Positions 929 to 30,600 of a stretch of 50,629 nucleotides of DNA are shown here, piece by piece (positions within the stretch are counted from its first letter, which is position 1; the number at the start of each line of letters is the position of its first letter). Origin of the DNA: a virus. The translations under genes were made by a program, and so were the position numbers. The notes under the pieces are model-generated. The model was not told where the DNA came from. It saw only the letters and a list, made by a program, of their open reading frames with translations, and made no database searches. Where the stretch lies: IMG/VR virus record IMGVR_UViG_3300045836_000169, positions 1 to 50,629 of that record. One strand, written 5' to 3'.

Positions 929-1137
929 GACACCACCTCCGCCGCGGCGGTCCGTCGCTGCCATGCGGCCCTGTTGCTGGCGGGCCGGGTGTCGTGGGCG
1001 CGCAGCTCGGCGAGCAGCAGGGCGCGGCGGCGCTTGGTGACCGCGCGGGTGTCGCCGTGCTGTTGGGCGTAGTGCTCGGCGAGGGCGTCGAGGGTGGCGA
1101 GCGCCCATTCGTCGAGGCAGGGGGCCAGGGCGGTCAT
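925..1137 (-). CDS. Small basic helical protein, unknown
   Basis: A 70-residue protein of unknown function between the helicase and the methyltransferase. The ATG at 1137 overlaps the helicase stop (ATGA), and its own stop overlaps the methyltransferase start (GTGA), so translation is probably coupled. It is mostly helical, with an acidic/aromatic N-terminal half and a basic core ([15 protein letters not shown]). No family is recognised. Confidence 0.75.
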
Positions 1138-2519
1138 CGCTTGCCGTCCAGTACGCCGCTGGGCGACCACTCGGGCTTGGCCATGTCGACGATCCGGGCG
1201 AACTGCCCCTGAAACGCGCATGTGATCGAGAAGCCGGACGGGCCGGAGCGCTGCTTGTCGATGATCAGGTCGATCTCGTTCTGCCGCGGCGTCTCGCGCT
1301 CGTACATGTCCTCGCGGTAGAGCAGCACCACCGTGTCGGCGTCGTGTGCTAGTGCGCCGGACTCACGCAGGTCGTGCTTGGTCGGCCGGTGATCGGCGCG
1401 GCTGGTGAAGTTCTTGTTCAACTGCGAGAGCGCGATCACGCACACGCCCATCTCTTTGGCGATCATCTTCAGCCCGCGCGAGAGCCCGGCCACCTCGAGG
1501 TCGCGTCGCTCGGCGCGCCGTTCTCCAGTGGCCAGCTGGAGATAATCCACGACGACCAGGCGCGTGGGTACCCGCTTGCGCATGTGCTCCAGGCGCGCCC
1601 GGATGGTGGCCAGCGTGATGGTGGACGCGTCGTCGATGAGCATCGGCGCTGCGGCGATGCGCGGGGTGAGCTTCGCGATGGTCTCGCGCTCTGCCGCGTC
1701 CAGGGTCCGGTTCTTGATGTGGTGCAGCGGGATCTTCCCGACGCTGGCCAGCAGCCGCCAGTGCACCTCACGCCGGCCCATCTCCAGGCTGTGGATCAGC
1801 ACGCCTTCACCGAGGCTGAGCGCGACGTGTCCGCCGACGTTGAGCCCGAACACGCTCTTGGCCCCGCCAGTGTCCGCACCGACGATGACCAGCTGCCCGG
1901 CGTAGAGCCCAACGGCCTCGTTGAAGTCGATCCACGGGGTGGGGATGCGCCCGGCGTCGCGATCGTCGTCGATGGCTTCGACGCTCGCGGTGAAGTCCTG
2001 CTCAAGCCACGCAGCGCTCGGGTCGGCGCTCGCCTGCGCGGCGACCCGGTTGACGCCGTCGAGCAGGCCCGCGACGACCTCGGGTTCGAAGCGATGGTCG
2101 CCGGTCGCGTAGGCGCCGCGCAGAAACGCGGTGTGCAGCTGGCGGCGGTAGGCGTCGTCGGCGACCGTCTTGGCGTGGTGGCGCACGGACTGCGGGTGCG
2201 TGAGCACGGTCGCGCCGGCGAGCTGGTGCAGGATCGCTGGGCCGGAGCGCCGCAGCAGGGCGAGCTGCCCGGTGGTGGTCAGGTGCTGGTGTACGGCGAG
2301 CGGGTCGATCGGGGTTCCAGCGGCGTGCATGTCGATCGCGGCCTGGTAGATCCCGGCCAGTTCCGCGTCCCAGAACGAGGCGGCGGTCAGGGTCTCGCTG
2401 GCTGCCTCGAGAGCTGCGCGGGACATCAGGCACGCGCCGACGACCTGTCGTTCGGCTTCCAGCACGGGCGGGGCGGGGACGTGGCGCGCGAGGTCGTCGC
2501 CGGGCGGGGTGGTGTTCAT
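1134..2519 (-). CDS. Replicative DNA helicase, DnaB-like
   Basis: Hexameric helicase that unwinds the fork; 461 residues, near the usual DnaB length. The N-terminal part (about 1-130) resembles the DnaB primase-interacting domain ([12 protein letters not shown]). The RecA-like core holds a Walker A loop GADTGGAKS, Walker [11 protein letters not shown] and SQLNK. The canonical Gly before the Walker Lys is Ala here. An open frame continues upstream, but the ATG at 2519 overlaps the loader stop (ATGA) and the protein sequence is DnaB-like only from there. Partners are the upstream loader and initiator. Confidence 0.92.
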
Positions 2520-3166
2520 CGGGCAGCCGCCTTGCGCCGGTCTTCGCCGATCAGCGGGAGGGTCCAGCACATCTCGGTGACGCGGGAGGCGATGCGCGCG
2601 CCGAGCCGCTCGCTCATCTCGCCGGGCGGCACATTGGTGGTGAAGATCGAGGGCAGGGCGTGGGTGTAGCGCCGGTCGATCAGGCGGTAGAGGGTTTCCT
2701 CGGTCCACTCGGTGCGGTTGGTGGCACCCAGGTCGTCGAGCAGCAGCACGGGCGCGGTCGCGAACAGGGCGTAGGCGCCTTCGGTGTCGCGGCCGGGCGC
2801 CGGGCGCTGGACGCCGAAGAATTCGGCGGTGGAGCCGGCGCGCCAGGTGACGCAGGAGCGGCGCGACTCGCTCAGCAGCCGCAGGGCGGCGTAGCCGTTG
2901 TGGGTCTTGCCGGTCCCGGTGGGTCCGGCGATCAGCAGCGAGGGCGCGGTGCGGGGATTCTCGAGTACGGCCAGCGCCCAGGCGTAGATCATCGGCTGGT
3001 CGGTAGTGGCGTCGGCGTAGCGGGGCGGAGTGGCGTTGTGGGCGTGCTTGCGGTTCTCCTGCTGCTGCCAGCGTGCGGTTTTGGGCTGGCTGGGGGCGCC
3101 TTCCTCGGCGTCGGGGTCGGTGATGGCGCGGATGGTGTCGAGCCAGTCGGTGGGGAACGTGGTCAT
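2516..3166 (-). CDS. DnaC-like helicase loader ATPase
   Basis: AAA+ ATPase expected to load the neighbouring DnaB-like helicase at the origin. 216 residues, with Walker A GPTGTGKTHN at about residue 83, Walker B VLLLDDLGA, and a later FTTN sensor-like motif, as in DnaC/IstB ATPases. The ATG at 3166 overlaps the initiator stop and the gene's stop overlaps the helicase start, both as ATGA. This initiator-loader-helicase order is typical of phage replication modules. Confidence 0.9.
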   Translation of the reverse strand: MTTFPTDWLDTIRAITDPDAEEGAPSQPKTARWQQQENRKHAHNATPPRYADATTDQPMIYAWALAVLENPRTAPSLLIAGPTGTGKTHNGYAALRLLSESRRSCVTWRAGSTAEFFGVQRPAPGRDTEGAYALFATAPVLLLDDLGATNRTEWTEETLYRLIDRRYTHALPSIFTTNVPPGEMSERLGARIASRVTEMCWTLPLIGEDRRKAAAR

Positions 3167-4119
3167 GAGATGGCTCCGAAGTAGACGGACTGGTCGGCGG
3201 GGTTCTGGTACGGGCTGTGGCCGCTTGAGCGGCCGAAGCCTTCGATGGCGACGCGCAGGGTGTTCGCGGTCAGGGCGCGTTTCTCCTTGGCCAGAGCGCG
3301 CAGGCCGTCGGTGATCTGTTCGTCGTCGTAGAGCGGCTGGCGGGTGCCGGGCTCGGTGGAGCGGACGGCCTTGCGTACGACGCCTTGGACGGCGAGGAAG
3401 GTGGAGAGCGGGACGAGGTCGGTGTAGACCTTGGCGAGGCGGTTGATCCGCTGGCCTTCGGTCTCGGGTTCGGCGTGCTGCGGCGGCTCGTCCGCCGCGA
3501 GGTCGGGCACGAGCACGAGTTGCGCCGGCGCGCCCGGCTCGGGCGCAGCAGCACATGCAACCTGCAACCTGCTACCTGCTACATAAAGAAGCGACGACTT
3601 GTCTGCGCCGGACGCAGACTCGTCCGCGCGCCGCGCAGACTTATCTGCGCGAGATTCGGGTGGCGCGCTGGCCTGCACGTTCGTCTCGTGCGCGCTCGAA
3701 TCGGCGTCCGGCGCATCTTCGTCTGCGTCTCGCGCAGACTTGTCCGGGCGCGGCGCGGGGTCGTCTGGGTCCGGCGGCGGCGGGAGGCGCGAAGGGACCT
3801 TCGCGGCCTCGAGTCGCTGATGCTTCGCCAGGCGCGGCAGGAACAGGTACGGGTCGCCGTCGACCTCGTAGCGCACGACCCGCCCGGCGATCACGAGCAT
3901 GTCGAGCAGGGCGTCGATGACCTTCGGCGTCAGGTCGTCGTCCTCGGCGTACGGGAACGCCTGACCCTTGATGTAGGCCGGGTCACCCATGAGCCGGGCG
4001 TGCTCGTCGGCCAGGTTCCACAAGGCCATGTAGAGCATCCGGGCGTCGCGGTTCGGCACTTTGCGCACGAACGAGCGGTCGACCCAGAACTCCGGCTTCA
4101 CTGAGCGGATGCGTGCCAT
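3163..4119 (-). CDS. Replication initiator, winged-helix type (replisome organiser)
   Basis: 318 residues, probably binding the origin and recruiting the downstream loader and helicase. Residues 1-110 look like the winged-helix domain of phage initiators (RSVKPEFWVDRSF, then YMALWNLADEHAR and a wing with DGDPYLFL). The middle is a low-complexity linker with repeated ADKSAR/ADESA-like units. The C-terminal third is helical, like DnaD-type modules (TANTLRVAIEGFG). The linker DNA carries iteron-like repeats, so the origin may lie inside the gene as in lambda O. The start ATG lacks a clear ribosome site. Confidence 0.8.
   Translation of the reverse strand: MARIRSVKPEFWVDRSFVRKVPNRDARMLYMALWNLADEHARLMGDPAYIKGQAFPYAEDDDLTPKVIDALLDMLVIAGRVVRYEVDGDPYLFLPRLAKHQRLEAAKVPSRLPPPPDPDDPAPRPDKSARDADEDAPDADSSAHETNVQASAPPESRADKSARRADESASGADKSSLLYVAGSRLQVACAAAPEPGAPAQLVLVPDLAADEPPQHAEPETEGQRINRLAKVYTDLVPLSTFLAVQGVVRKAVRSTEPGTRQPLYDDEQITDGLRALAKEKRALTANTLRVAIEGFGRSSGHSPYQNPADQSVYFGAIS
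3557..3760. other. Candidate replication origin inside the initiator gene
   Basis: Seen directly: four tandem 7-mers (GCAACCT, GCAACCT, GCTACCT, GCTACAT) at 3557-3584, then the AT-rich patch ATAAAGAA, then several copies of a CGCAGACTTRTC-like box. One is a perfect dyad, CGCGCAGA-CTTA-TCTGCGCG (3632-3651); another is GTCTGCG paired with CGCAGAC near 3721-3740. Iterons plus an AT-rich patch within an initiator gene is the lambda-type layout. Origin function is inferred; the repeats may instead only reflect the repeated peptide linker. Confidence 0.4.
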
Positions 4120-4164
4120 GCTTCGTCGCTTCGCTTTCCCCGAGTGGCGGACGGTGGAGGACGG

Positions 4165-4560
4165 CTAAGCGCCGAGCAGAACGGACGCCTGGACGATCCG
4201 GCCTCGCCGGCCGAGGGCGCAGGCCATGACGAGCGCCGCCCAGTCCGACCTCGCGGGCCAGTGCTTGGAGGACAACTGGCTGGTCCACTGCGCCAGCTGC
4301 TTCCAGGTGCGGATCTGCTCGACGCCGATCTGGTAGAGGTCGCCGATCTCGTGCTCGGGGGGCGTGCATTCGCCGTAGTGCCGGGCGTACCAGCGGATCG
4401 GCATCGGCTGGGCGATCACGGTCTCGATCCCGGCGAACGTCACGCGCGGCAGCTCGTCGCCGCGGTGTGCCCGGATCTCGACATAGGGCGCGTAGAGGTG
4501 GCCCTCGTCGTCGGCGATCGGGGCGTGGCAGGCGTCGCAGATAGCGGCTAGCTCGTGCAC
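4165..4560 (-). CDS. Hypothetical protein with N-terminal Cys pair
   Basis: 131 residues, unknown. The GTG start at 4560 has a very strong ribosome site (AAGGAGG eight bases upstream), which supports the call. It begins with a CDACH zinc-finger-like motif, followed by a beta-rich segment and a C-terminal half rich in Trp (IRTWKQLAQWTSQL). It precedes the initiator in the replication operon. Only one clear CxxC pair is present, so metal binding is uncertain. Confidence 0.75.
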   Translation of the reverse strand: MHELAAICDACHAPIADDEGHLYAPYVEIRAHRGDELPRVTFAGIETVIAQPMPIRWYARHYGECTPPEHEIGDLYQIGVEQIRTWKQLAQWTSQLSSKHWPARSDWAALVMACALGRRGRIVQASVLLGA

Positions 4561-4584
4561 GGTCCCCCTCCTTTCGTGAGCTGG

Positions 4585-4848
4585 TCAGTTGGTCTGTGCG
4601 AGTGCGGCTCGCCCTTGGCGGATCAGCGCCTCGCCGAGCGCGATCGCCGCGGCCGGGTCGAGCGCGCCCTCTTCGTCGAACAGGTACTTGGGGTGGGCGA
4701 GCCACACGACGGTCTCTTCGTCGTCGCCGGACAGGCCGACGAGCCAGCCGGCCGCCGCGCGCTGGTCAGCGGCGACGCATATCCCGGCGTCGTGGCGCTT
4801 ACAGAAGGGCCGGTGGCGCCTGACGGGGCTGGTTTCGCCGGGGATCAC
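4585..4848 (-). CDS. Small hypothetical protein
   Basis: 87 residues, unknown. The GTG start at 4848 overlaps the previous stop as GTGA; the much longer open frame upstream is not coding-like. The N-terminus has a FCKRHDAGICVAAD segment with two Cys and a His, then a conserved-looking VVWLAHPKYLFDEEGALDP stretch and a C-terminal helix. Early operon context suggests a replication or host-takeover accessory role, not shown. Confidence 0.7.
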   Translation of the reverse strand: MIPGETSPVRRHRPFCKRHDAGICVAADQRAAAGWLVGLSGDDEETVVWLAHPKYLFDEEGALDPAAAIALGEALIRQGRAALAQTN

Positions 4849-5114
4849 GGCGCGCCGCCGGAGCGTCGTTCGCGGCGGTTGCGGTGCCAGGCGGCGAAGT
4901 CGATCACGTTGTCCGGCAATAGGACCTCGGCCGCGTCGGCGAGCGTGGTCATCGCGTCGGCTGCGGCGTGCAGCTGGCTGGCCGCGGCGCGAGCCTCGCT
5001 CGGGCTGACCGCCGTGTCGCCGGTCAGCGCGTCGGTCAGGAAGCGCAGGGCCGTCTGGACGGCGCTCAGGGCGTCGCTGGCCGTCTCGGTGTCGAGGGTG
5101 AGGGCCGCTGTCAT
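4845..5114 (-). CDS. Small all-helical protein, first major gene of replication operon
   Basis: 89 residues, unknown, rich in Ala, Thr and Asp, and predicted to form an antiparallel helical bundle with no Cys. Its ATG overlaps the stop of a 10-codon leader frame (ATGA), and its stop overlaps the next start (GTGA). It lies about 110 bases downstream of the minus-strand promoter within the 5224-5275 palindrome. Confidence 0.7.
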   Translation of the reverse strand: MTAALTLDTETASDALSAVQTALRFLTDALTGDTAVSPSEARAAASQLHAAADAMTTLADAAEVLLPDNVIDFAAWHRNRRERRSGGAP

Positions 5115-5143
5115 CGTCGGCCGCCGACGGTAAAGTCAGGCAT
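5111..5143 (-). CDS. Possible 10-residue leader peptide
   Basis: ATG at 5143 with GGGAG about eight bases upstream reads MPDFTVGGRR and stops in an ATGA overlap with the next gene. The layout would couple translation of the operon to this leader. It is too short to support by coding statistics. Confidence 0.3.
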   Translation of the reverse strand: MPDFTVGGRR

Positions 5144-5223
5144 ACGTCCACTCCCGGTCTCATCGGGTGTTGGGCTACGCCCCGGCCGGAGTGTCCAGCT
5201 CCGGTTCGGGGCGGCTCTGTTTC

Positions 5224-5275
5224 TGTGTCACAGATTACTTGTGCAAGCTGTCTTGTGCAAGTAATCTGTGACACA
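5224..5275. promoter_or_regulatory. 52-bp palindrome with mirror-image divergent promoters
   Basis: Perfect 18-bp arms, TGTGTCACAGATTACTTG (5224-5241) and its complement at 5258-5275, plus an inner CAAG-CTGT-CTTG stem. Plus strand: -35 TTGTGC (5239-5244), 17-bp spacer, -10 TAATCT (5262-5267), with the predicted start on or beside the ATG at 5275. Minus strand: -35 TTGCAC (5260-5255), 17-bp spacer, -10 TAATCT (5237-5232), driving the replication operon. Two copies of CTTGTGCAAG (5238-5247, 5252-5261) cover the -35 boxes and look like operators. Base composition is far less GC-rich than the surroundings. Confidence 0.7.
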
Positions 5276-5664
5276 TGGACCGAGACCCGTTGAGACGACG
5301 CCCCAGCGGCGCGGCGCGACCCCCGCACATCGCAAACCCGGTAGCGCATCTGCACTTGGCCAAGCCGCTGTGGCAACATGTCCGCGTGGCGCGCATTGAT
5401 CCAGACGACCCGCGACTGACTCCCGTGAGGGACGCCGTTGCGGCGCTCAAGGCCGCCGAGGAGGCCGTGAAGCAGCGCCGAGCCGAGTTGGGCAAGGCCG
5501 TCGCCGACGCCATCCGCAACGACGTCGGGCCCGCTGTCCTGGTGCGCGAGACCGGGAAGTCCGCCGAGTCGATCCGGACGATGGCGCGCGAGAACGGCGT
5601 CGAGCCGCTGCGCGATCCGAGGGGCGCCGCGAAGTCGGCCGCCAAGCGCGCCGCCGACTCCTGA
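5275..5664 (+). CDS. HTH-like DNA-binding protein, probably leaderless
   Basis: 129 residues. The C-terminal two thirds are helical, with a HTH-like stretch (VRETGKSAESIRTMARENGV, about residues 87-106) and a basic Ala/Lys tail; the first 36 residues are Arg/Pro-rich. The ATG at 5275 lies 7 bases after a -10 box with no ribosome site, as in leaderless actinobacterial mRNAs. A GTG at 5386 is an alternative start. As the only plus gene here and divergent from the replication operon, it could autoregulate the shared palindrome (inference). Confidence 0.65.
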   Translation: MDRDPLRRRPSGAARPPHIANPVAHLHLAKPLWQHVRVARIDPDDPRLTPVRDAVAALKAAEEAVKQRRAELGKAVADAIRNDVGPAVLVRETGKSAESIRTMARENGVEPLRDPRGAAKSAAKRAADS

Positions 5665-5684
5665 CGCCGCGTGGGCACGCGAAC

Positions 5685-5705
5685 GCCCCGGCACACGGCC
5701 GGGGC
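5685..5705. terminator. Bidirectional hairpin between convergent genes
   Basis: GCCCCGG and CCGGGGC (7 bp, 7-base loop) lie between the plus gene ending at 5664 and the minus gene ending at 5724. There is no U tract on either strand, so efficiency is uncertain. Confidence 0.5.
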
Positions 5706-5723
5706 ACGCGAGACGGGGGAGGG

Positions 5724-6410
5724 TCACGGGGCGGCCCCGAAGTCCAGCGCGGTCTGGCTCAGGCGCCGGGCCGCGATCTCGCAGTAGCGCTCCTCCAGCT
5801 CTACGCCGACCGCGCGTCGTCCCTGATTGCGGGCCGCGACCAACGTCGAACCCGACCCACAGAAAGGGTCCGCGACCACACCCGGCGGACACGCGCTGAT
5901 GAGTTGTTCCAGCACATCGACCGGCTTCGCGTGGGGATGCTGATACCGGCCAGTCAGCCCGTTCGGACTGCTCTGCATCCGAGTGGAAGAACGCAGCAAC
6001 GCGCTCCGGCCGCCGAGCCCCGACCGGAACCCGCCTAGCAGGTAGACGGCCTCGATATCCCGCCGGTAGCCGCCGATCGCCCCCCGCATCCCGGCGTCGA
6101 CAGCCTTGAGATAGACCAGGGTGATCTTCGCGCCATCCGGGGGGGGCAACAGGGGATCACCGAACACGACCGCCGGGCGAGTCCCCCACTCCTTCAACGC
6201 GGCGTCACGGACCGACGTGTCCCGGTCGTTGGCGATCCCCGCGTGCCCGTCGTTGCCGCCGTTGGACTTGAGGTTTCCTTGCCGCCAGCCGCGCCCGTAC
6301 GGCGGGTCGGTCACGAGCACGTCGGCATCAAGCCACGCCGTCAGCTCCCGGCAATCCCCATGCCACAACTGCACGGTGCCGTCGTCGAAGTACGGGGTCG
6401 CGCCCATCAC
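5724..6410 (-). CDS. DNA methyltransferase, N6-adenine/N4-cytosine beta class
   Basis: 228 residues. Catalytic motif IV (VTDPPYGRG) is near residue 35 and SAM motif I (ADPFCGSGSTLVAA) near residue 186. This permuted order with the catalytic motif first defines the beta class. A target-recognition segment with KPVDVLEQLI precedes motif I. The start is GTG 6410 or ATG 6407, overlapping the upstream stop. DPPY methylates adenine N6 in most relatives. No partner endonuclease is adjacent, so this is an orphan enzyme, perhaps anti-restriction. Confidence 0.9.
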   Translation of the reverse strand: MMGATPYFDDGTVQLWHGDCRELTAWLDADVLVTDPPYGRGWRQGNLKSNGGNDGHAGIANDRDTSVRDAALKEWGTRPAVVFGDPLLPPPDGAKITLVYLKAVDAGMRGAIGGYRRDIEAVYLLGGFRSGLGGRSALLRSSTRMQSSPNGLTGRYQHPHAKPVDVLEQLISACPPGVVADPFCGSGSTLVAARNQGRRAVGVELEERYCEIAARRLSQTALDFGAAP

Positions 6411-6556
6411 CGCACCCCCAGTGCCCGGCCGGCGAGCGCGATCAGCGCCAGCCCCAACCGGCCCAGGCCGTACGCGCCCAGCAGGAACGCGGCGGTCGCC
6501 AGCAGCATCCCGGCGGTCGGGAAGGGGCAGCGGCGACGAGGGCGGGAGCCGGTCAC
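6407..6556 (-). CDS. Small single-pass membrane protein
   Basis: 49 residues from GTG 6556, overlapping the upstream stop as GTGA and the methyltransferase start at its end. A basic Arg-rich N-terminus is followed by one long hydrophobic segment (MLLATAAFLLGAYGLG). Function unknown; overlaps on both sides support it being real. Confidence 0.6.
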   Translation of the reverse strand: MTGSRPRRRCPFPTAGMLLATAAFLLGAYGLGRLGLALIALAGRALGVR

Positions 6557-6942
6557 GCTGGCACCGCCTCAGCCGCAGCGACAGGCGGATACGCCGCGGC
6601 GTACTCCTGCCACAGCCCCGCCTCCTTCAGCAACTCGATCAGCAGCCGACCGGCCCGCGTGATCTCGTAGAACTCGCTGAACCTCGCGCCCGAGGTGTCC
6701 GTGCGCGGCGGGTACGGATAGGAGTGCAGCAGCAGGCCCCGGCGGATCAGGCCGTTCGACCCGGCTACGAAGTGCGGGATCGTGTGGTAGCTGTCCGCCG
6801 TGACGAACTCGTTGATGGTCGTGTCATTGGCGAGCCGCCAGTCGATGTAGGCGAGCGTGCTGATGTGCGTCTTGCGCAGCGTCAGGGTGAAGGCGCTTCC
6901 GGTGACGTGGTCGCGCAGCGCGGTGTTGATCGGAGCGCTCAC
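6553..6942 (-). CDS. Winged-helix-like hypothetical protein
   Basis: 129 residues from GTG 6942 (GTGA overlap with the DUF4326 gene). The central part (TINEFVTAD, GLIRRGLLLHSYP, FSEFYEITRAGRLLIELL) resembles a MarR/PadR-type winged helix: helix, recognition segment, beta wing and a terminal helix. It could act as a transcription regulator, but no binding site can be assigned. Confidence 0.7.
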   Translation of the reverse strand: MSAPINTALRDHVTGSAFTLTLRKTHISTLAYIDWRLANDTTINEFVTADSYHTIPHFVAGSNGLIRRGLLLHSYPYPPRTDTSGARFSEFYEITRAGRLLIELLKEAGLWQEYAAAYPPVAAAEAVPA

Positions 6943-7310
6943 GGCGTGCCCCCGATCCGCACCGCACCCGCCGCGCACAGCCGCTCCACGAGCGCCGCCA
7001 GGCCGCGGGCATGGCACGGCATGTCGTCCGGGCACCAGCAGCCCAGCCGCTTCCCGTACAGCTCCGGCAGGCGGCGCATCAGCTCGGCCTGCTGCGGCAG
7101 CCACTCGGCGTACAGGCGCACCGCCTCAGCCGCGCCGCCCACCTTCTGGGCGCGGTGCGGGTTCGCCCACGGCGAGGCGGGCAACCGCCAGCCGCCCTGG
7201 AACTGGGCGCGCCCGACATACACCACGTTCCGAGCCGCCGGGAGTTCGAGCGACGGCCCGAACTCCTCCCGGCGACCCTTCAAGCAGATCGCCTGCGTCG
7301 CGGCGGTCAC
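6939..7310 (-). CDS. DUF4326 family protein
   Basis: 123 residues. NVVYVGR followed by SPWANPHR and later LGCWCPDDMPCHARGLAAL match the family found in many phages and bacteria, whose members carry a conserved C-x-C-x5-C-H cluster. Biochemical role unknown. It overlaps neighbours by ATGA/GTGA on both sides, within a run of small early genes. Confidence 0.85.
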   Translation of the reverse strand: MTAATQAICLKGRREEFGPSLELPAARNVVYVGRAQFQGGWRLPASPWANPHRAQKVGGAAEAVRLYAEWLPQQAELMRRLPELYGKRLGCWCPDDMPCHARGLAALVERLCAAGAVRIGGTP

Positions 7311-7636
7311 AGGGACGCTCCAGCGTCAGGGCCCTTGGCCACGGCCGCACGCATCGCGTTACCCGCCGCACGCCACCCGTCCTGGTAGCCCTTGCGGTAC
7401 GCGTCCGTATCCGCCTCGGCACCGATCAGCAGCGCCGCCAACGGGCAGTTGAGGATCGCGGCGATCTGAAGCAGCCTCGGCAGCGTGGGCAGCGTCGTGC
7501 CGTGCTCCCACTGCGAGACGTTCGGCGAGCCGATCCCGAGCCGTTCGGCGAGCGCCAGACCGCTGAGTCCGGCGACCTTGCGCTGCGTGGCGATGTTCCT
7601 GCCGATGGTCTTGGCGATCTCCGGGGTGTCCATCAT
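7307..7636 (-). CDS. XRE-family HTH regulator (copy A)
   Basis: 109 residues, with a Cro/CI-type helix-turn-helix at about residues 10-65 (LSGLALAERLGIGSPNVSQW). The C-terminal tail ADTDAYRKGYQDGWRAA is shared with the XRE protein at 7877-8206, so the two are paralogues of equal length. The ATG at 7636 overlaps the upstream stop. It probably regulates early genes; no operator can be assigned. Confidence 0.85.
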   Translation of the reverse strand: MMDTPEIAKTIGRNIATQRKVAGLSGLALAERLGIGSPNVSQWEHGTTLPTLPRLLQIAAILNCPLAALLIGAEADTDAYRKGYQDGWRAAGNAMRAAVAKGPDAGASL

Positions 7637-7884
7637 GAGGTCACCGGCCGATCGCGCCAGCAGTTGCCGCACGGCAACAGGTGCACGGCCATCACCGGGC
7701 AGTAGCAGGCCTCGGAGCACCACGGCTCGCCGACTTGCACGACCGCAGCGACCGGGGCGACGACGATCCGCATGCGTGGCTGCGCGGCCACCCACGCCAC
7801 CGGCGCACGGCGCACCGCGGCACGATCCCGAGCGGACGCCGCAGCGGCACGCAGACGCGCGGCGAGAGGGGGACGATCAGCCAT
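7633..7884 (-). CDS. Small protein with C-terminal Cys cluster
   Basis: 83 residues lying between the two XRE genes. The N-terminal half is Arg/Ala-rich and helical. The C-terminus carries CSEACYCPVMAVHLLPCGNC, which could bind zinc. Function unknown. It shares 8 bases with the upstream regulator and an ATGA overlap with the downstream one. Confidence 0.65.
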   Translation of the reverse strand: MADRPPLAARLRAAAASARDRAAVRRAPVAWVAAQPRMRIVVAPVAAVVQVGEPWCSEACYCPVMAVHLLPCGNCWRDRPVTS

Positions 7885-8206
7885 CGAACCGACCGCCCTT
7901 CGGCTTCCACGTCAGGTGGCCGCTCACGTCATCCGCGCACGCCGCCCAGCCATCCGCATAGCCCTGCCGATAGGTGTCCGAGTCCGCGCCGACGCCCTTG
8001 AACAGGGAGACCATCGGGCATTCGAGCGCGGTGGCGACCTTGACCAGGAACTCAGTTCCGGCGAGCCGCTGCCCGCTCTCATACATCGATATCGAGGACT
8101 GATTCACGCCGGTCCGATCGGACAGCCAACCCTGGTTGACGCCACGGTTCTTGCGCGCTGCGGTGATGTTCGCGCCGATCATCTCGGCCAGCGTCTGCTC
8201 AGCCAT
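7877..8206 (-). CDS. XRE-family HTH regulator (copy B)
   Basis: 109 residues, Cro/CI-type HTH (NQGWLSDRTGVNQSSISMYE at about 24-43). The tail ADSDTYRQGYADGWAA mirrors copy A. Tandem duplication with divergence in the recognition helix suggests the two bind different operators or form heterodimers (inference). The ATG at 8206 lies inside the end of the upstream gene. Confidence 0.85.
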   Translation of the reverse strand: MAEQTLAEMIGANITAARKNRGVNQGWLSDRTGVNQSSISMYESGQRLAGTEFLVKVATALECPMVSLFKGVGADSDTYRQGYADGWAACADDVSGHLTWKPKGGRFDG

Positions 8207-27671: not shown

Positions 27672-30600
27672 CTACTGGCCGACCCCGACGAAACCGGTCA
27701 CGCTGTTGCGCCGGGCGTAGTTCTGCGTCTCGGCGCGAGAGCCCGCGGTCACGGCCTGCCCGATCAGGTTGCCGTCCAGGTAGATCGGGGCGTACACGGT
27801 GATCGCGTCCGATCCGCCGTAGCCGGAACCGAAGCCGCCGCCCCCACTGCTCGGCGCCGCGAGGGCCGGGGTGAGCATGTCCATCGGCGTGATGTAGCCG
27901 TCCGCGCCGGGGACGAAGACCTCCGGCTTGCCGTTCAGGCCGATCATGTAGGGCTCGCCCGCCTGGACCGGTCCGCCCACGTCGCGGCTCGGCAGCAGCG
28001 CTTTACCGCCGGGCAACCCGTTCGGTGAGGCGTACACCTGGATGTAGGCGGCCTGATGGTCGAAGTACTCGACCATCGACCTGACCGCGTCGGTCGCCGG
28101 CGCGGTGTTCGCGCTGATGTCGATCGGGATGTCCTGCGGCAGGTGGTAGAGCTCGTTGGCGAGCTCCTTGACCTTGTCCTTGTTGAAGCCCGCCTTGTCC
28201 GCGGCCTCGACGAACGCCTGCTTCTCCTCCCCCAGGATGCGGTTGGCGTCCTGGAAGGCCTGCGAAGCATGCCCGGTGGCCACGTCGTTCTGATAGATCG
28301 ACTCAGCGGCCTTGTCCGCCGCGCCGGCGAGCTGCGTGAAGGTCAGGATGTTCTGCGCGCCGTGCACGTTGTTGATGTCCAGGCTGTGACCGTTGGCCTG
28401 CGCCGCCTTGGAGACGCCGTCCAGGCCGATCGTGACCTGCGCCTCGGCGCTGAGCATGCCCTGCATGGAGCCGTTCAGGGCGGTCACCACGCTGGTGTAT
28501 CCGCTGGCCTGCGCGGCGGCGAGGGCGTAGGCGTCCACAGCGTTGTAGAGCGCGAGGTCCAGCGCACCCTGGTTCGCGCCCAGCTGCAGCGCGGCCACCG
28601 CTGAGAGGGCGGTGGCGCTGGCCTGCGCCTTGAGCTTGGCGTCCGTGGCGTCGATCGCGTCGCCCAGCAGCATGGCCTCCTGCGCCGCGGTGAGCGTGTG
28701 CGCCCCCAGAGAGCCGAGCACCGTGGCGTACGCTCCGGCCTGCGCCGATGCCTGCGAGAAGGACTGCACCGAGCCCATCAGCGTCTCGCCGAGTTTGGAC
28801 TCGTTGGCCCCCAGGTCCAGCACCCCGACCGCCGACAGGGCGGCCTGCTGGGCCTGGGTCTGCATCTTGCTCGCGACCCCGTCCAGGGCGCCTTGCAGGA
28901 TCATCGCGTACTGCGCCGCGGTGACGGTGTGCGGGTCCAGCGCGCTCAGGATCGTCGCATACGCCGAGGCCTGCGTGTTGGCCTGGGAGAAGGCCTCCAC
29001 CGAGCCCATCATGGCCTCGTTCAGGCCGGTCTGGTTGTCGCCCAGGTTCAGCGCGCCGACGGCCGAGAGAGCGGTCTGCTGCGCCTGGTCCTGCATCTTC
29101 TGGGTGACCCCGTCCAGGGCACCCTGAAGCAGCATCCCGTACTGCGCGGCCGAGACCATGCCCGAGTTCGGGCCGCCGAGCGCGAGCAGCGCGCTCTCGT
29201 ACGCGCCGGCCTGGGTCGCGGCCACGCTGTACTGGGAGATGGCCTCGACCAGGGTGTGGTTGAGGTCGGATTGCGCGTCGCTGAACCCGAGCGCGGCCAC
29301 GGTGCCCATTGCGCCGGACTGGGCCTGCGCGAGCATCTTGGTGTGCCCGTCGTCCAGGGCCGCGTTGAAGATCTGCTCGGTCTGCTCCGCCTGCATCGTG
29401 GCGGCGGTGAAGTCCCGGTCCTGCTGCACCGCCTGCTGTACGGCGCTGGCCACCTGGTCGAGTTGGGCCTTCTGGGTCTGCAGCTGCTCCAGCTGCTTCT
29501 GCTGCGCGGTCATCTGCGCGTTGGTGGCGCTCAGGCCGATGTTCGAGGCGTCCGCGGCCTGCGCCATGGACTGCGCCTTGGCGTCGTAGGCCTTGGTGAC
29601 CTGCGTCTGCGCGGCGCTTTCCCCGGCCGCGTACTCGATCAGCGTTGCCTGCGAGACGCCCAGCTGCTGCGCGAGGCCGGTCAGCTGGCTCTTGGACAGC
29701 GCGTTCTGGATCGTGACGACCGTGTTGTCGCCGACCGCATTGGAGTCCTGCTGCACCGCCGAGGTGAAGTCCGAGGCGGAGGCGGCGGCGTTGTCGAACG
29801 CCCCGGCGATCATCGTGCCGACCTGCCCGAGCGCCATGGGCAGGAACGCGATCGCGGAGATGCCGTAGATGCCCTGCATCAGCGGGCCGTTCATGATCCC
29901 GGCCAGCCCGCCCATGGACTCCTTCGCCCGGCCCGCAGCCGCGGCGGTCTGGTCCAGCTCGCCCGCAGCCGCGCTGACGCCACCCGCCTTGCCGCCGCCG
30001 AGCGAGGCCACCTCCCGCTCGGCCGCGGCCACTGCCGCGAGCGCTGCGGCCTGCTGCTCGGCGGAGACCTCGGCGCCGTTGGCCAGCTGCGCATAGGTGT
30101 CCACGAGCGTCAGGTTCGCGGCCACGAGCTGCTGCTGCGCGGCGCTAAGGGCGATGGCCTGCAGCTCGGCCTGGGCGGTCGCTGAGGCCTCGTCCAGGGC
30201 CCACGTGCTGCCGTTCTCCAGCGCGACCGCGAGCGCATCGACGTCCACGCCCGCCAGGTCGGCCGCCGCGGCGAGGGAACGCAGCGCGATCTCGTCGTCG
30301 ATGACCGCGTTCTCGTTCTGGATCACGGCGAGGTTCACCGCATTGAGCGCGTCGACCTGAGCCTGCGCCATGCTGGCCACGGTGGCCTGCGCGCCGGCCA
30401 CCTCGTCGAGGGCGACCCTCAGCCCGTCGAGGTCGGCGTTGCCCGAGGAGGCCATGACCAGGTAGCTCTGCATCAGCGACGCGTTCGAGGACGCGAGGGC
30501 CGCCTGCGCCTCCTCCAGCCCCTTGGTGCTCAGTGCCAGCTGCGCCTCGCTGGTGCCGTAGCGCTCCGCCGCGGCCTGCGCGTCGGCGAAGCTGACGCTC

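Follow-up and report, generated by a model that had tools for sequence, protein, structure and literature searches.

A near-perfect 52-bp palindrome as the probable shared operator-promoter of a phage regulator gene and a divergent replication operon

Divergent autoregulation is a common kind of gene control; in tetR/tetA of Tn10, for example, one regulator acts on its own gene and on a divergent operon through palindromic operators. The locus described here belongs to a viral record that is 50,629 bases long (approximately 71% G+C) and is hereafter called the window. Compared with tetR/tetA, the presumed regulator belongs to a protein family that is unrelated as far as our searches show, and the window has no known inducer.

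Bidirectional bacterial promoters, as presented by Warman, Grainger and colleagues, share one -10 element, with starts mostly 18 bp apart and distances of 10 and 23 also common (PMC12825309). The palindrome in the window is like these promoters in that symmetric DNA would engage the polymerase either way and binding in one direction would exclude the other; in our case, we infer mutual exclusion from the overlap of the two promoters only. It is unlike them in that it contains two -10 elements, presumed starts at 5224 and 5275 (51 positions apart) and -35 elements located in the overlap, and thus falls outside the definition of a bidirectional promoter. In Streptomyces coelicolor, the -10 element is TANNNT and leaderless transcripts account for about 21% of the primary starts (PMC4895711), with TANNNT located approximately 12 bp before the start codon of actinobacterial leaderless genes (PMC4895711, PMC3160421). 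By these accounts, a leaderless start is ordinary in Actinobacteria, and the window differs in that the promoter is embedded in a putative operator palindrome.

Further comparisons are provided by helix-turn-helix regulators, namely gp102 of Streptomyces phage TurkishDelight (NC_073473) and the proteins encoded in G001 (101,757 bases) and G002 (89,769 bases). Both of these records are Streptomyces-type phages or prophages, and G002 matches part of the Streptomyces sp. NRRL B-1347 sequence. All three proteins show profile homology to the window protein, and in each case, as in the window, a -10-like box precedes the start by 6-7 nt. Also common to the window, G001 and G002 are the CTTGNNCAAG box, its 14-bp step and a divergent neighbour, whereas gp102, also a family member, contains the domain twice and its record has zero copies of CTTGNNCAAG. 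In G001, G002 and a further locus, L140, there is one array for the regulator and another for the divergent operon, whereas in the window one palindrome serves both. Our literature searches found no description of the regulator family or the site, a statement that applies to those searches only.

The segment 5224-5275 (Table 1) is a near-perfect palindrome with 24-nt arms (5224-5247 and 5252-5275) that match in 22 of 24 positions and flank a CTGT centre. The palindrome scores 18, well above the 9-12 reached when the window was shuffled 25 times under a first-order Markov model, and the coordinates given in the initial annotation are correct. As single-stranded DNA, it folds with -23.6 kcal/mol (z -9.6). 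We add to the earlier description that the 52 bp consist of four 10-bp units and three 4-bp spacers, with an exact 14-bp step (5224, 5238, 5252 and 5266) and the order, from 5224 to 5275, TGTGTCACAG, CTTGTGCAAG, CTTGTGCAAG, CTGTGACACA. The two arm mismatches (TG vs CA) are at the centre of the inner box. The outer-unit motif TGTGNCACA differs from the inner boxes and is found in the window only at the two outer ends. There are three copies of CTTGNNCAAG in the window (at 5238, 5252 and 5355) against 0.30 expected; the third is either a chance occurrence or a downstream site.

Table 1. Features of the window in and around the palindrome; promoters, starts and regulatory roles are predicted
Feature	Position	Strand	Remarks
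DnaB-like helicase	1134..2516	-	PF03796, E 1.1e-63
DnaC-like helicase loader	2516..3127	-	phrog_50, E 1.9e-33
Replication initiation protein	3163..4119	-	phrog_1408, E 4.7e-29
Leftward ORF, 131 aa	4165..4560	-	no assigned function
First leftward ORF, 89 aa	4845..5114	-	no assigned function
Presumed leftward leader	5110..5224	-	strong GC hairpin, -45.5 kcal/mol, z -2.5
Palindrome, interpreted as a four-unit fused operator containing putative back-to-back promoters	5224..5275	.
Outer unit, TGTGTCACAG	5224..5233	.	contains TGTGTCACA
Leftward mirror promoter (putative)	5232..5260	-	TTGCAC 5260-5255, 17 bp, TAATCT 5237-5232, presumed +1 ~5224
Inner box 1, CTTGTGCAAG	5238..5247	.	covers rightward -35
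Rightward promoter	5239..5267	+	TTGTGC 5239-5244, 17 bp, TAATCT 5262-5267, presumed +1 5275
Inner box 2, CTTGTGCAAG	5252..5261	.	covers leftward -35; 14-bp step as in the G001/G002 double boxes
Outer unit, CTGTGACACA	5266..5275	.	contains TGTGACACA; overlaps presumed rightward start
129-residue protein, presumed regulator	5275..5664	+
Third CTTGNNCAAG	5355..5364	.	within the regulator gene, ~80 nt past its start

Two further repeats were noticed in the window. A second near-perfect palindrome, at 247-281, has 17-bp arms and a 1-base centre (score 17, shuffles 9-12), and its G+C-rich arms flank TGTTGACAACA. A tandem 231-nt direct repeat, 72% alike, occupies 28649-29110 within a large minus-strand ORF.

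The initial annotation read each strand of the palindrome as a -35 element, a 17-bp spacer and a -10 element, with the rightward start at or next to an ATG and a box over each -35 element, and the sequence contains exactly this arrangement. The TAATCT element is followed by 7 nt on either strand, reaching the A of the ATG at 5275 in the rightward direction and position 5224 in the leftward direction. The mirrored TTGNNN-17-TAATCT elements are poor matches to sigma-70 promoters, and a consensus promoter scan of 4000-7000 yielded zero promoters. The TTG-20-TANNNT pattern alone was observed three times in the window, with 1.2 expected per shuffled window; directly before an ATG, it was observed once, against a mean of 0.0 in 60 shuffles. 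The rightward promoter, with TAATCT, 7 nt and ATG, has the configuration of actinobacterial leaderless genes, namely TANNNT at about -12 and an AUG start. What makes this promoter credible is the 7-nt distance between its end and the ATG, together with the family-wide placement of the -10 element (see below). The leftward promoter is a candidate suggested by symmetry and by the need for one. The genes on its side include those for replication initiation, DnaC-like and DnaB-like proteins by PHROGs and Pfam, which upholds the earlier assignment of a replication operon to the left of the palindrome. A 10-codon ORF that starts from 5143 on the minus strand, in the presumed leader, overlaps the start of the 89-aa ORF and may couple its translation.

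Searches with the 129-residue protein yielded no match in Pfam at E 0.001, nothing in PHROGs at E 0.1, nothing above the cut-off in NCBIfam and no match in the phage collection. In particular, no HTH_3 domain of the Cro/CI type was detected at the Pfam threshold of E 0.001. The predicted structure, a mediocre model (mean pLDDT 67.9, pTM 0.40), consists of a low-confidence N-terminus, a long helix (46-81) and helix-turn-helix-like helices (86-93 and 97-106). Comparison of the model with solved structures produced no match at E 0.001; Rex- and Fis-like folds (best E 1.2) were set aside.

The closest homologue, 59% identical, is encoded in four viral contigs (L003-L006), two of which are distinct by their flanks. 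Both distinct contigs encode replication-initiation and DnaB-like proteins on the opposite strand, like the window, and the second helix of the homologue is similar to that of the window protein (ETIRQMAR against ESIRTMAR). The homologue gene is preceded by TACAGT, 7 nt and ATG, that is, a -10 element and a leaderless-looking start, but the upstream DNA in L003-L006 contains neither the palindrome nor the CTTGNNCAAG box. Among viral contigs, an exact search with the arm gave no match and a search for the fused mirror pattern found none. Profile A1, for which the window protein and the 59% homologue served as seeds, again recovered the same four contigs in a second viral scan; in genome contigs, it gave 125 candidate stretches, none of which was confirmed.

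Profile A1 also matched G001 (E 6.3e-5), G002 (E 2.2e-6), TurkishDelight (E 3.9e-4), G003 and G004; identity to the window protein is 32% for the G002 homologue and 28% for that of G001. A separate scan of viral contigs for the double box gave 60 stretches, only four of which are high in G+C: three in G001 and one in G002 (L025, L026, L066 and L073). The others have a G+C content of 0.34-0.57, and many look like one conserved sequence in related contigs; the double-box pattern alone is not diagnostic. The regulator homologue genes in G001 and G002 start right after a double CTTGNNCAAG-like box, with two departures in the box of G001. Since the searches for the pattern and for the protein were separate, their meeting in these two records carries more weight than any other single observation. 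Arrays of boxes with a 14-bp step number six within 16 kb of G001 and four within 10 kb of G002; besides the arrays by the regulator genes, others cover further promoters. In the G001 stretch, lags of 12, 15 and 18 also give many matches. Most of these arrays have TTGACT between the boxes and a TANNNT-like -10 element under a further box. The array-region DNA of G001 matched two TurkishDelight records (72.8%) among phages and had no match among plasmids. Across 392 Streptomyces genomes, the double box had two matches (G005, a known prophage, and G018), compared to 14 genomes for a reversed control pattern, so it is not a host-wide motif. The repressor/Cro intergene of the TurkishDelight record (L114, 47592-47755) contains, by eye, a repeated CGCTACTA-like motif of its own that is unlike CTTGNNCAAG.

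A second profile (A3; the window protein seeds both this profile and A1) was compared with the same 392 genomes and matched 26 of these at E 1e-5, in 33 places, three of which, without a locus, were left out. Upstream regions were analysed for 31 of 37 loci, with the omission of L121 (upstream as in L120), L123 (which represents the L133 gene), L158 (lacking a clear start) and the second domains L163, L164 and L166; five of the 31 (L118, L120, L122, L124 and L133) are seeds of profile A3. A xAxxxT element ends 6-7 nt before the ATG in 30 of the 31 regions, including the window, compared to 84 of 1784 control ATGs (4.7%); the family starts were chosen by eye, a procedure that favours the former figure. 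The full TANNNT is present in only 4 of the 31 family promoters, and none of the 31 regions contains a Shine-Dalgarno-like motif. The retention of the -10 placement across the family supports the leaderless start that the initial annotation assigned to the 129-residue HTH gene. Several family members have a tandem double domain (L139/L164, L141/L166, L145/L163 and TurkishDelight gp102, L118/L119).

Palindromic 8-mers starting between -34 and -29 are present in 16 of the 31 regions compared to 12.2% of the controls (binomial 1.2e-7), with other bins near background; the boxes of the window, at -36 and -22, lie outside this bin. A divergent TTGAC between two like palindromes was detected in five of the 31 regions against 0.1 expected from shuffles, namely in the seeds L133 and L124 and in the new loci L140, L141 and L145; the window, where the spacer is CTGT/ACAG, lacks this feature. 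In these five regions, the boxes of the divergent promoter are similar to those of the regulator gene itself (divergent/own): CTTGGCCAAG/CTTGGCCAAG, CTTGTGCAAG/CTTGTGCAAC, GTTGGCCAAC/CTTGGCCAAC and, twice, GTTGCAAC/GTTGCAAC. Given that L141 and L145 use GTTGCAAC, box and regulator seem to vary together. Lag 14 exceeds the shuffles in a subset only (3 of 31 regions at a score of at least 15; lag 13, 2 of 31), so the 14-bp step is not family-wide.

The view that the boxes are sites of one regulator, put forward when the palindrome was first noted, gains support from the boxes beside the G001 and G002 homologues and from the matching divergent boxes; that regulator would most likely be the 129-residue protein itself. 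The suggestion that relatives might preserve both arms did not hold: the closest homologue lacks the palindrome, and the paired boxes of the remote relatives are on separate arrays. What recurs in relatives are the boxes and the -10 placement, not the stem.

Taken together, we consider it likely, with a probability of about two in three, that the palindrome is the operator-promoter of the 129-residue regulator, shared back-to-back with the replication operon. Judged by its sequence, the site probably serves as a landing place of the regulator that controls its own gene together with the divergent replication genes. The 129-residue protein, presumably a dimer given its long helix and helix-turn-helix, would bind CTTGNNCAAG boxes spaced 14 bp apart, two of which in the window would occupy the -35 elements of the two back-to-back promoters. 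The rightward promoter would produce the leaderless regulator mRNA and the leftward promoter would feed the replication operon. When bound, the regulator would cover and repress both promoters, such that its own synthesis and early expression of the replication genes would be limited together; the location of boxes over the -35 and -10 elements suggests repression by occlusion. Without the regulator, the overlapping promoters would hold one polymerase at a time. Several results weigh against this reading: the closest homologue has neither box nor palindrome, the TurkishDelight record is devoid of CTTGNNCAAG, identity to the G001 and G002 proteins is low, the boxes of the window fall outside the bin preferred by the family, its spacer lacks TTGAC, the consensus scan returned no promoter, the structure model is mediocre and without a solved match at E 0.001, and the searches of viral contigs gave no second fused palindrome.

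The rightward promoter might function alone, with the left arm being an inverted copy or a matter of operator symmetry, the leftward -10 and -35 elements a by-product, and the operon read from elsewhere. The leftward promoter, as the mirror of the rightward one, needs no separate selection, its TTGCAC is a poor -35 element, the nearest homologue lacks the palindrome, and the divergent promoters of the family, where found, use TTGAC. Against this, 5115-5274 contains just one other leftward TANNNT candidate, at 5132, and the mirror one is the sole candidate with a TTG at 17 bp; furthermore, the regulator gene, on the opposite strand, stands between the operon and the next upstream gene on the leftward strand, a methyltransferase (5724-6410). 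On balance, we regard rightward-only activity as unlikely, albeit a serious competitor.

It appears distinctly improbable that the boxes are the operator of a Cro/CI-type HTH_3 protein, with the 129-residue protein merely a target. Short palindromes in early promoters are common phage repressor sites, and two HTH_3 proteins are encoded in the window (7307-7642 and 7877-8194). However, none of the three copies of CTTGNNCAAG in the window is by the HTH_3 genes, and neither the TurkishDelight repressor/Cro intergene nor that of the G002 HTH_3 pair contains the box, whereas the G001 and G002 homologues of the 129-residue protein start beside it. An even more remote prospect is that the palindrome acts as a structure, be it a cruciform, an origin or a terminator: its strong hairpin potential, its position adjoining replication genes and its 58% A+T content in a genome of about 71% G+C would fit such a role, but there is no T run after either arm, a terminator scan did not select the palindrome, a search against Rfam gave no match, and it is the boxes and -10 placement rather than the stem that relatives keep.

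Beyond the shared operator-promoter, a broader scenario can be proposed only tentatively, and we consider it doubtful as a whole. Under this scenario, the actinobacteriophage regulator family would have an operator code of its own, in which short palindromes occur in pairs at a distance of 13-14 bp and differ from one regulator to another, and the window would represent a collapsed form, in which a self-mirrored 52-bp site provides both promoters and the whole operator, the polymerases are mutually exclusive, and replication genes are set against their brake in an either/or switch. The regulator and its operator make a small, testable pair for a phage protein family that has no name in the searched libraries. 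An operator that changes with its regulator would allow operator prediction across Streptomyces phages, and the fused palindrome would offer a small, naturally occurring site at which to study polymerase competition at fully overlapping promoters.
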